A stretch of DNA of 64,000 nucleotides from the NCBI RefSeq assembly GCF_001406815.1, contig NZ_CVRR01000006.1:1-64000 (forward strand). Reading direction: 5' to 3'. Shown here one piece after another: positions 14,492-28,271 of this stretch. This DNA comes from Roseburia faecis (GTDB taxonomy: Bacteria; Bacillota; Clostridia; Lachnospirales; Lachnospiraceae). The position numbers and the translations under genes were made by a program. Position 1 is the stretch's first letter; every line of letters begins with the position of its first letter. Below the pieces are notes generated by a model that ran no database searches, was not told the origin of the DNA, and saw only the letters and a program-made list of their open reading frames with translations.

Positions 14492-14745
14492 GTCAACACT
14501 GGAATCTCTCATTTCCGTATTTCATTGATCTAATTCAGATCTTTCTAGTCACAGACGTAATCTTATTTCCCCTGCAAGTATTCATCAATACCATCTGCAA
14601 TCTTATTCTGGTACTCATCGGTTGCCATTTTTTAATCTTCTTCCTATTCTCTATTAATAAGTTTGTTTATTTTTACAATTTTATCTCAAAAATATATTTT
14701 TATACTATCTCCGTCATCATCAGTAGTCAATCCAATTCTGTTTTA
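14492..14745 (-). pseudogene. remnant of PD-(D/E)XK (Rpn-like) gene, copy A
   Basis: Bases 14492-14560 are a diverged copy of the 3' end of the genes at 14845 and 16128 (compare AACACTGGAATCTCTC with AACACCGGAACTTTTC, then a shared TTGATCT-CAGATC pattern). Bases up to 14745 resemble the region between the third copy's start and its upstream hairpin. The middle of the gene is deleted. An open frame on the plus strand here (14482-14805) is low-complexity and not convincing. Confidence 0.5.
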
Positions 14746-14747
14746 AT

Positions 14748-14799
14748 AAGAAAAAGTGATAATATATTCTTTTTTTGTCATACATCATCACTTTTTCTT
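14748..14799. terminator. bidirectional hairpin, diverged twin of 17245-17294
   Basis: AAGAAAAAGTGAT (14748-14760) pairs exactly with 14787-14799. The loop side still shows traces of the longer stem (GATAATATAT against TACATC) that is perfect in the hairpin at 17245-17294. T-tracts occur on both strands. Confidence 0.6.
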
Positions 14800-14844
14800 A
14801 CTTAAATATTCTATTTTTATTTAATACGGGTATTTCAAATTAAT

Positions 14845-17015: not shown

Positions 17016-17244
17016 ATTGCTTCCTCCTGTTTGTGTGAATCACGATTCCGCAACATCGCAATTTGTTTTCGTGCACAAATGCTTAGTTTTCACCTCTTTC
17101 CTTTTCGATTTTCCCTCCGCAATCTTTTCCTGTCTTTATGATAACCTATTTATTTTTCTCCATCAAGCAGTTTCTTGTATCCCGAACACCCAAAATAATC
17201 TCATCGTTACTGTTCGCATCAAATTGTTAACGGAATCAATTATT

Positions 17245-17294
17245 AAAAAGAAGTGATGATGTATTGTTTTTCATATACATCATCACTTCTTTTT
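17245..17294. terminator. bidirectional terminator closing the rml operon
   Basis: There is a perfect 20-bp stem (17245-17264 with 17275-17294) and a 10-nt loop, flanked by A and T tracts. It lies about 28 bases after the rmlC stop on the minus strand and can also stop transcription leaving the island. A diverged twin lies at 14748-14799. Confidence 0.85.
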
Positions 17295-25843: not shown

Positions 25844-26617
25844 TTACAGTCCCAGCACATCCAGAAGGATCTGTTCATCTTTCTTTTGTTTCTGTGGATG
25901 CTGTAATTCCGCATCTGCCAGGCGGGTACGGATATTCTGCATCCGCTGGTCCAGATCTGCACTGATCTGTGCACATTCGCTCAGTTCCTGTGCCAGACGC
26001 TCGGTTTCATCTGCCGGAACATTCTTTTTGTACCGCACTTTGTGCTCCAGACTCGCCCAGAAATCCATGGCAATGGTGCGAAGCTGTACTTCAACTTTCA
26101 TTTCCCGTTTCTCATTCTGTAAAAAAATCGGTACTGCAACGATCAGATGCAGGCTACGGTATCCGTTTTCCTTCGGATGCTTGATATAATCTTTCTGTTC
26201 GATCAGACGGATATCATCCTGCTGAAGCAGGCAGTCCGCCAGCAGATAGATATCTTCCGGGAAAGAGCACACAACCCGGATTCCTGCTATATCATTGATG
26301 TTCTGTTCAATCGCCGAAAGCGTCAACGGAATATTTTTCCGGCGCACTTTGCGCACGATTCCGTCCAGCGATTTCACACGTGTCTTGATGGACTCGATCG
26401 GATTACGGTCATATTCCAGCGAAAATTGTTCGTTTAACACTTTAAACTTCGTTTCTACTTCCATGATTGCGCACTTGTAATATGCCATCATTGTATCCAG
26501 CGGTTTTGTATTTTCCTGCACAAAATCCAAAAATTCATCAGACATCAGACGGTTACGGACAAGGTTTTCCGCTGCCTGCTGCAGCTGCGCATTTACTACT
26601 TTACTTAATTCGTTCAT
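25844..26617 (-). CDS. relQ: small alarmone synthetase (RelQ/YjbM-like)
   Basis: This makes (p)ppGpp from ATP and GTP or GDP. 257 residues with only the RelA/SpoT synthetase domain and no hydrolase or regulatory domains. Motifs: RVKSLDGIVRKVRRKN, IEQNINDIAGIRVVCSFPEDIYLL, DYIKHPKENGYRSLHLIV (the substrate-binding Tyr and basic loop) and VEVQLRTIAMDFWASLEHKVRYK with the catalytic Glu. Length and the C-terminal helical tail agree with the RelQ class. Standing alone between a radical SAM gene and a large non-coding repeat. AGGAAAT precedes the start. Confidence 0.9.
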   Translation of the reverse strand: MNELSKVVNAQLQQAAENLVRNRLMSDEFLDFVQENTKPLDTMMAYYKCAIMEVETKFKVLNEQFSLEYDRNPIESIKTRVKSLDGIVRKVRRKNIPLTLSAIEQNINDIAGIRVVCSFPEDIYLLADCLLQQDDIRLIEQKDYIKHPKENGYRSLHLIVAVPIFLQNEKREMKVEVQLRTIAMDFWASLEHKVRYKKNVPADETERLAQELSECAQISADLDQRMQNIRTRLADAELQHPQKQKKDEQILLDVLGL

Positions 26618-26676
26618 ATCTATTTCCTCTTTTTCTCCTGTAATTTTCTATATAAATAATTGTGAAATTCTTAGTT

Positions 26677-27171
26677 CCGGCGGACTCCCGTGTGGTGGCT
26701 CCGGCTGCGGCCTCTCCGATACGCACGAATTAGACAGAATCTTAAAATTTGCGAAAGTGATTGCGTGGCTCTAATTTTGTGTCCGGGCAATGTTTCGACA
26801 GCGGCGCGGTTTGTGTCCGTCTGCCAAGGATGCGCTCAGAATTTCTAGTCTGCCTAAGCGGAGCACTTCAAAAATTTTATGGCGCCCGCTCCCGGTTATG
26901 TCTCCCTACGGACTTTTTTGAATGACCTTAAATAAATGTGGTCGCAAACACGACCCGCGGGCACAGTATTTTGAAGCACTCCGCTAAGGCAGACACGAAA
27001 TCCTTCGGACGCGTCCTTGGCAGACGGACACAAACCGCGCCGCTGTCGAAACTTGAACGAACACAAATCATCAAAGGAGTCACGCAGTCACTTTCTGCAA
27101 ATTCTTGATTCTGGATATTGAGTGCGTATCGGAGAGGCCGCAGCCGGAGCCACCACACGGGAGTCCGCCGG
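26677..27171. repeat. large imperfect inverted repeat, ~495 bp
   Basis: Two ~200-bp arms face each other around a ~95-bp centre. The outer 50 bp (26677-26726 and 27122-27171) are perfectly complementary, as are 38 bp further in (26793-26830 and 27014-27051). A third block (26849-26873 with 26969-26993) pairs with three mismatches. The sequence between blocks is diverged but still alignable. The arms are GC-richer than the flanks. Neither strand gives a convincing gene; the frame 26928-27188 is a by-product of the repeat. The rest of 26618-27338 holds only the cysK terminator. Nature unknown. Confidence 0.85.
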
Positions 27172-27198
27172 AGCACAAACTTTCCCAATTGTTTTAAA

Positions 27199-27236
27199 TA
27201 AAAAGAACTTCACGGAAATAAATTTCCATGAAGCTC
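27199..27236 (-). terminator. cysK terminator
   Basis: On the minus strand GCTTCATGGAAAT and ATTTCCGTGAAG form a near-perfect 12-13 bp stem with a 2-nt loop, followed by TTCTTTTTATTT. It lies about 100 bases after the cysK stop. Confidence 0.75.
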
Positions 27237-27338
27237 TCCGCACATGGACTTTCCTTTCTGGTTTCCACATGCCTTTATTATAATGGATTCATCCGCAAAA
27301 CGGAATAAATAAAGTCTGAACTTTTTCCGAATTTTATC

Positions 27339-28271
27339 TTAATCCTTGAACAGATCGGTAGAATAATAACGGTCTCCGCTGTCCGGAAGAAGCGCTACAA
27401 CTGTCTTACCCTTAAACTCCGGTCTCTTTGCTACTTCGATGGCAGCCTTTAATGCTGCTCCGGAAGAAATACCTACCAGCACGCCTTCCTCTTTTGCAAT
27501 ATATTTGGAATACTCGAAAGAGTCTTCATTGGAAACCGGGATTACTTCGTCGTAAATCTTGGTATCGAGTGTGTTTGGAATAAATCCGGCTCCGATACCC
27601 TGGATCTTATGTGGACCTGCCTTTCCGGTAGACAATACTGCAGATGTCTCAGGCTCTACGGCAACGATCTTTACATCCGCGTTCTGGGATTTTAAATACT
27701 CACCAACACCTGTGATGGTTCCGCCTGTACCGACACCGGCTACAAATGCATCGACTTTTCCATCCGTATCTTCCCAGATCTCCGGTCCGGTTGTCTTCTT
27801 GTGTGCTGCCGGGTTTGCAGGGTTCTCAAACTGCTCCGGAATGAAGCTGTCTGCGATCTCTTTGTGAAGTTCCTCTGCCTTTGCGATGGCTCCCTTCATA
27901 CCCTTGCTTCCATCGGAAAGAACAAGTTCTGCACCATATGCCTTGATGATGTTACGACGCTCAATACTCATGGTCTCCGGAAGAACGATGATCAGGCGGT
28001 ATCCCTTTGCTGCTGCGATTGCCGCAAGACCGATACCTGTATTTCCGGATGTCGGCTCGATAATGGTGGAGCCCGGTTTTAATTTTCCGTCCTTCTCTGC
28101 CTGCTCAATCATCTCTTTTGCAATACGGTCCTTAACAGATCCTGCCGGGTTAAAGTACTCCAGCTTTGCAAGAAGTCTTGCCTCAAGGCCAAACTTCTTC
28201 TCGATGTGTTTAAACTCTACCAGTGGTGTGTGTCCGATCAGTTCCAATGTTCCTTCATAAATATTTGCCAT
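27339..28271 (-). CDS. cysK: cysteine synthase A (O-acetylserine sulfhydrylase)
   Basis: CysK makes cysteine from O-acetylserine and sulfide using PLP. 310 residues: [11 protein letters not shown] carries the PLP lysine, [12 protein letters not shown] the substrate loop, [16 protein letters not shown] the phosphate-binding loop, and [11 protein letters not shown] the PLP pyridine-nitrogen serine. The start at 28271 (MANIYEG) is eight bases from GGAGG; an in-frame TTG at 28286 would overlap that site. Monocistronic, with a near-consensus promoter carrying an Rrf2-like motif. It supplies cysteine to the neighbouring SUF and ISC desulfurases. No T-box is visible in the leader. Confidence 0.95.

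Follow-up and report, generated by a model that had tools for sequence, protein, structure and literature searches.

The inverted repeat of about 540 bases that lies between cysK and a relQ-like gene in the window, by which we mean the whole 64,000-nucleotide stretch of Roseburia faecis DNA analysed here, is probably one copy of a dispersed, mobile-derived and non-coding family of palindromic DNA elements whose arms overwrite each other. The family is multi-copy and its architecture is near-fixed; its arms change together, its interior is found flipped against the flanking DNA, arm segments found in one species are absent from both arms in another, and some copies are reduced to remnants.

The Palindrome and Its Family

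Inverted-repeat search of the window delimits outer arms of 118 nt at 26654-26771 and 27077-27194, which are 82% complementary, and inner arms of 43 nt at 26792-26834 and 27010-27052, which are 98% complementary. The repeat that an earlier note had described is thus genuine, and at ~26654-27194 it extends some 23 nt further on each side than first recorded. As that note had also said, arm-to-arm conservation is uneven in this copy, which contains perfect blocks of 51 bp (26676-26726/27122-27172) and 39 bp. The fold of the palindrome, at -367.8 kcal/mol, lies far below the shuffle mean of -163 (sd 6.2; z about -33; 0 of 100 shuffles as low), with a z of -30 for the opposite strand; any transcript of the repeat would form the giant hairpin predicted earlier. 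With a seed of 14, a minimum length of 25 nt and a spacing of up to 3 kb, this is the sole long, closely spaced inverted repeat within the window, where the two other inverted pairs found measure 27-32 nt at 78-85%. A 27-nt, 85% stem-loop is located at 14741-14811, with a related 32-nt inverted copy ~2.4 kb away (17233-17264).

Flanking the palindrome are cysK, which scores above the NCBIfam cysK cut-off, and a gene of the small GTP-diphosphokinase type. For the latter, the name relQ given previously is plausible and falls short of proof, the top family being GTPPhKinYjbM at 177 bits against a cut-off of 320 bits. Elsewhere in the genome (G000:C70:31803-32441) there is a further match that resembles a small alarmone synthetase; it shares 46% identity with the window's relQ-like protein, and one stop is reported for it.

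The whole element (26654-27194, plus strand, the orientation being set by the core motif) was delimited by the inverted-repeat search, the fold and related copies. Its outermost parts, recognised by copy comparison, are a left terminal motif, TTGTGAAAT, at 26660-26668 (plus strand; of TTTGCGAAAC type in several other copies) and an inverted right terminal motif at 27179-27191 (minus strand). Inside these lies the 51-bp basal arm block (26676-26726, plus; partner 27122-27172, minus), identical to its partner and 33% identical to other copies. It is followed by conserved asymmetric segment 1, which reads GAATTAGACAGAAT on the left (26727-26740) and ATTCTGGATATTGA on the right (27108-27121), and by conserved asymmetric segment 3, which reads GTGTCCGGGCAATGTTTCGAC on the left (26779-26799) and GTCGAAACTTGAACGAAC on the right (27045-27062), all on the plus strand. 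The second arm block, the 38-bp block of the earlier note, occupies 26792-26834 (plus) with its partner at 27010-27052 (minus). The left core motif, TTCTAGTCTGCCTAA (26843-26857, plus), is the most conserved part of the element, and the right core motif, TAAGGCAGACACGAA (26985-26999, plus), begins beyond an apical region at 26858-26984 (plus). A terminator-like stem-loop after cysK (27202-27239, minus) belongs to the flank, ~8 bp outside the element.

As the earlier note had supposed, neither a gene nor a known RNA is apparent at the repeat. Five ORFs of the window copy gave no Pfam family (best E 0.055), on which ground a coding remnant was rejected. Rfam returned no match at gathering score for eight loci, and a permissive RNA-family scan of 26400-27500 gave three sub-threshold matches up to E 10, none convincing, the best of which (24.9 bits) is located outside the element. 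A phage element was rejected after two patterns yielded no viral contigs, and a plasmid element after no plasmid match was obtained. Two records from human faeces filed as 'Bacteriophage sp.', MT839852.1 (L099) and MT837490.1 (L100), are 98% identical to the window-genome loci L002 and L005 over 2.0 and 2.8 kb, and are mislabelled contigs of the same species as the window; one end of the first is a folded-back stretch located at the palindrome. The earlier note had allowed that the arms might be fragments of a known repeat. The arms do belong to a repeat family, yet one that matches nothing in Rfam or among plasmids, and no description of it was found in the open-access literature searched or by a term search of PMC13155455; on the strength of these Rfam and literature searches, the family is apparently undescribed.

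When the genome and its relatives were searched for copies, as had been suggested, a dispersed family emerged. The window genome (G000) contains four copies, the window copy included; of the others, L002 is 89% identical to the window copy, and L004 and L005 are 69% identical over part of their length. Elsewhere in the Lachnospiraceae, model R2 detects 11 copies in G127, two in G432 and two (one weak) in G458, with no copy in eight other genomes. In three of the nine species of another genus, g87, it returns 70 (G147), 69 (G778) and 89 (G779) matches at E ≤ 0.1, counts that possibly include opposite-strand or fragment matches; 110 g87 copies were fetched and studied. A DNA search revealed no copy in 61 other species of the window's genus and, among 397 family genomes, detected copies in G127 and G432 besides the host genome. 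A core covariance model, R1, is clear in 4 of the 397, adding G147 of a third genus; its weak matches in G063 and G148 were not recovered by R2. The order-level search, with shallow scoring, found the window genome alone among 392. Because seven candidates were scored per genome under strict filters in the family and order searches, and because the contig pattern search was unable to match g87-type cores, this distribution is a lower bound. Elements are ~505-570 bp long in the window genome and genus g67 and ~215-475 bp in g87, and some copies are remnants only.

Might the repeat be an assembly or sequencing artefact? Two G127 contigs (C68 and C104; L043 and L045) do stop inside element copies, and record MT839852 carries the terminal folded-back stretch mentioned above. 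However, the window copy is interior to its contig, the element recurs in several genomes that were assembled separately, copies B and D are present at 98% in records that come from a different sample, and the arms are imperfect and contain asymmetric conserved segments; we give an artefact almost no credence. These palindromes are probably breakpoints in short-read assemblies, which would then count too few of them.

Copy B of the window genome (L002:1479-2006) and copy f of G127 (L045), which belong to two genera, each sit immediately upstream of pth and point in opposite directions with respect to that gene; site preference, chance and shared ancestry are all candidate explanations. Long gaps upstream of pth in relatives were considered as diverged copies and rejected, since both gaps examined hold a gene, presumably glmU-like. 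The shared position beside pth, together with the conserved motifs in each arm, would suit a site kept by the host for regulation or chromosome architecture, with double-stranded DNA-binding sites in each arm and no mobile ancestry. We consider such a role highly improbable in view of the patchy distribution (clear R1 matches in 4 of the 397 family genomes), the relatives that lack the element beside the same genes, and the copies that are reduced or absent between close species. In three species of the genus, cysK and the relQ-like gene adjoin without the element, 215-389 bp apart.

Conservation Between Copies and Change at Orthologous Loci

Full-length copies in G000 and G127 share a common plan. 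A TTTGCGAAAC-type terminal motif stands outermost, followed by a variable, GC-rich and near-perfect basal stem, inside which asymmetric segments conserved across copies are separated by stems. The core motifs are spaced 125-128 nt apart in G000, G127 and G432. Among the G000 and G127 copies, successive anchor distances are 107-113, 60-63 and 48-53 on the left, 151-154 across the core, and 116-120, 66-68 and 54-56 on the right, with the outer anchors missing from copy D. Anchor spacing therefore shifts by only a few bases while the stems have diverged past recognition. In g87 even the most conserved stem is altered on both sides (GTCTGCC to GTCTTTC), with the adjoining unpaired bases kept.

The earlier note had taken the perfectly matched blocks for functional sites or paired RNA. 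Comparison of the window copy with four G127 copies and copy C reverses that expectation: the arm-matched blocks are the least conserved between copies (mean identity 0.33 and 0.47), whereas the segments that have 'drifted' between the arms are the most conserved (0.79, 0.83 and 0.90). Perfect blocks are thus a measure of arm-to-arm tracking rather than of sequence constraint. The asymmetric segments also hold one relative orientation in the aligned copies. Their conservation in a constant relative orientation indicates selection on the interior, for which arm copying alone is insufficient.

Orthologous copies in the three g87 species allow the behaviour of the arms to be followed at fixed positions. 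Thirty-five of 57 ortholog pairs qualified for comparison, having the same orientation, a core identity of at least 0.93 and an overall identity of at least 0.85. Their 3106 Watson-Crick pairs contain 39 two-sided changes, against 3.7 expected under independence, and 38 of these 39 end in another Watson-Crick pair. Since pairs inside a three-genome locus are not independent, the test was repeated with one pair per locus; the 22 loci gave 23 two-sided changes, against 2.2 expected. The outer arms have a median identity of 97% (104 usable of 110 g87 copies). Overwriting of one arm by the other is not instantaneous, as the same 35 pairs also exhibit 106 one-sided changes. At the strain level, comparison of L002 with L099 reveals few arm changes, none compensatory. 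Five ortholog pairs were viewed for unequal arm length: in four, one species has both arms shorter than the other, through either loss or gain of segments, and in the fifth the difference is asymmetric.

Alignment on the flanks shows the core reversed in 15 of the 57 ortholog pairs, representing 10 of 30 loci. These orientation calls are safe because the cores match at an identity of 0.85-1.0 one way round and of 0.61-0.69 the other way, and all 13 three-genome orientation triangles are consistent. Occurrence of the interior in both orientations is what an inverton would produce, in which a dedicated recombinase would turn the segment between the arms around and so switch neighbouring genes on and off, and several copies do adjoin gene starts. 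Set against such a switch are the ~70-90 matches per g87 genome, the lack of any promoter-like site in the window copy, and the fact that flips were observed between species only; we find it very unlikely.

Covariation and Wobble Pairs

The covariance analysis proposed in the earlier note yielded a massive signal. Alignment A3 comprises 7 full-length copies of the 11 then known. Not included are D, with its apical half alone, d and f, which are truncated at contig ends, and G432, which alignment A2 takes in. In A3, 77 of 194 pairs carry two-sided changes, and 91.4% of cells are paired, compared with at most 45.4% in slid controls; none of 500 shuffles reaches any of the five measures. Covariation of this size, beating both controls, is ordinarily taken as RNA. 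It would be explained if the family were a large structured noncoding RNA, or a set of such RNAs, with functional internal loops and with stems that covary because pairing is selected for, the likeliest strand being the one opposite the core. The near-fixed distances between the conserved loops, the single relative orientation of the asymmetric segments in aligned copies, and the depth of the fold (z -33, and -30 for the other strand) are likewise in keeping with an RNA. The near-perfect match of the arms can, however, be explained by DNA copying, and by itself is therefore no proof of paired RNA.

An RNA helix tolerates G-U but not A-C on its own strand. Among A3 pairs with at most two departures, G-U and A-C are equally frequent (22 each), whereas RNase P from eight genomes of the same family, passed through the same filter, gives 18 G-U and 3 A-C (98 and 3 over all pairs). 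All pairs of A3 together give 60 G-U and 33 A-C, a bias that is the folding program's, because folding the other strand produces the same one (62 and 35). Restriction to pairs found on both strands leaves 35 G-U and 32 A-C in A3 (22:22 filtered), compared with 17 and 0 in RNase P (14:0 filtered). The two-sided changes in A3 divide into 338 transitions and 310 transversions, compared with 206:78 in RNase P.

The g87 copies behave differently. Among both-strand pairs in the 110 copies, the core strand has 47 G-U and 96 A-C, and the opposite strand accordingly 96 G-U and 47 A-C (p 0.0001). One-sided ortholog changes in g87 are skewed in the same direction (52 A-C and 20 G-U, or 34:10 with one pair per locus), as are all pairs of a 17-core alignment (23 A-C and 8 G-U); the g87 outer arms alone are nearer even (54 A-C and 39 G-U). 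This wobble excess is about two- to threefold, far below that of RNase P, and might arise from an RNA or single-stranded DNA hairpin of the opposite strand or from strand-biased mutation, each of which would give it. The skew of pairing departures to A-C on the core strand, unlike window-type copies, was noted in the g87 copies L138-L167 and L191-L270.

Paired RNA, which the earlier note had offered as one meaning of the conserved blocks, thus fares unevenly: the giant hairpin, the covariation and the roughly 2:1 opposite-strand G-U excess in g87 speak for it, and the wobble parity of the window group speaks against it. For the window copy, a paired-RNA reading is disfavoured. The seven window-type copies lack a G-U excess on either strand, and their double changes are as often transversions as transitions. 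No promoter-like site was found in 26560-27340, the interior flips against its flanks, and the Rfam and permissive scans described above brought no convincing family. For the family as a whole, we judge a structured noncoding RNA to be unlikely, while granting the g87 asymmetry its weight.

Proposed Arm Copying and Spread, and Related Systems

We favour a mobile-derived palindromic DNA in which arm identity would be maintained mainly by arm-to-arm DNA copying rather than by selection on an RNA stem. Copying might proceed by polymerase template switching at the hairpin or by recombination between the arms, two routes that would do the same and fit these data alike. The second ingredient would be selection on the interior, most simply through recognition by whatever moves the element, possibly in single-stranded form. 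Spread of the family, as a mobile but non-autonomous element, may have depended on an enzyme acting in trans, whose targets would be the motifs at the ends and in the interior, perhaps presented by a hairpin that is extruded or single-stranded; a benefit to the host need not be invoked. Several observations stand against this explanation, namely the g87 wobble asymmetry on the opposite strand, the single asymmetric difference among the five arm-length comparisons, the lack of both a significant target duplication and a gene-carrying copy apparent in G147, the absence of clean sites in regions without a copy, and the constant relative orientation of the conserved asymmetric segments, which arm copying alone leaves unexplained. 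Selection for pairing could also raise the number of two-sided changes.

The marks of mobility are mixed. The family is multi-copy, short, dispersed and non-coding (coding having been checked in the window copy), as miniature inverted-repeat transposable elements (MITEs) are. Ends of TTTGCGAAAC type are present in most G000 and G127 copies, though not seen in D, f or G432, and ends of TTCGGATTTGTGTTC type in 35 of the 110 g87 copies; the two types show no resemblance by eye. Target-site duplication in g87, where the same number of copies (35 of 110) was usable, averages 3.57 against 3.04 in shuffled controls, with 11 of 200 shuffles as high. Duplication of a TA target, seen by eye at some ends, gained no support from the g87 test and was dropped, as was insertion beside terminators as a rule, which was visible by eye at several copies and absent at divergent-promoter sites and was set aside without a count. 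Inspection by eye of 47 terminal-motif matches in G147 brought up no gene-carrying, autonomous copy. In that genome, a pair of terminal motifs in facing orientation spans no more than 70 bp at G147:C5:31748-31817, possibly a minimal copy that lacks the core. Comparison of six copies (five loci) with eight corresponding regions brought to light no clean pre-insertion site. The copy-lacking regions contain either a remnant of the element or a short unrelated stretch, which makes loss no less likely than insertion.

Known systems resemble the family in part. Like MITEs and small mobile palindromic repeats such as Correia, RUP, ERIC/RU-1 and RPE, it is non-coding, intergenic and multi-copy, with inverted-repeat ends, foldback potential and no gene of its own found (PMC2229807). 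Unlike in those repeats, nearly all of its 505-570 bp is palindromic, its interior flips, and conservation between copies is higher in its inner unpaired segments than in its arm blocks; moreover, no target-site duplication has been shown for it and no transposase partner found. With REPINs and REP doublets, which are associated with RAYT transposases and possibly moved as single-stranded DNA, it shares extragenic, dispersed inverted repeats and predicted single-stranded DNA hairpins (PMC3116915). REPs measure 20-40 bp (PMC3733652), however, and the unit here is far longer and contains several conserved internal segments. Template switching between inverted repeats is reported to yield arm homogenisation and spacer inversion (PMC8604942) and has been put forward to account for compensatory changes of several bases (PMC8794818), features that template-switched quasipalindromes have in common with this family; quasipalindrome correction is nevertheless a mutational process, whereas the family is an element. 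The yeast inversions in PMC8604942 involve short arms, in contrast to arms of up to ~200 bp here. Long, matched arms are also kept in nematomorph mitochondrial genomes, where they reach 284 bp, but those repeats are protein-coding and mitochondrial and, in the abstract, are not described as dispersed family copies (PMC6649704). We therefore file the family as an apparently undescribed variant of palindromic intergenic repeats.

A bolder variant, proposed by analogy, is that these elements constitute a distinct class of mobile DNA that acts as a giant folded single strand, with a recombinase reading the unpaired bulges at fixed spacing on a 500-nt single-stranded DNA hairpin whose arms are regenerated from each other. 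attC sites and REP-like elements follow the same principle on a far smaller scale. We regard this variant as quite unlikely; if true, it would account for why the bulges are conserved, why their spacing is nearly constant and why the arms are free to vary yet matched, as well as for the flipping and the mild one-strand wobble preference.

Whichever route the copying takes in the mobile-derived palindrome that we favour, long palindromes, a type of sequence that is unstable in E. coli, number in the tens in the genomes of some gut bacteria, and the orthologous bacterial loci described here allow rates of arm overwriting and centre flipping to be measured. Strong covariation across ~190 base pairs that beats its controls may here be due in large part to mutual overwriting of the DNA arms, which could mislead pipelines that treat covariation as sufficient evidence of an RNA. 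Comparison of G-U with A-C and of transitions with transversions, together with inversion tests, helps to tell RNA pairing from arm overwriting.
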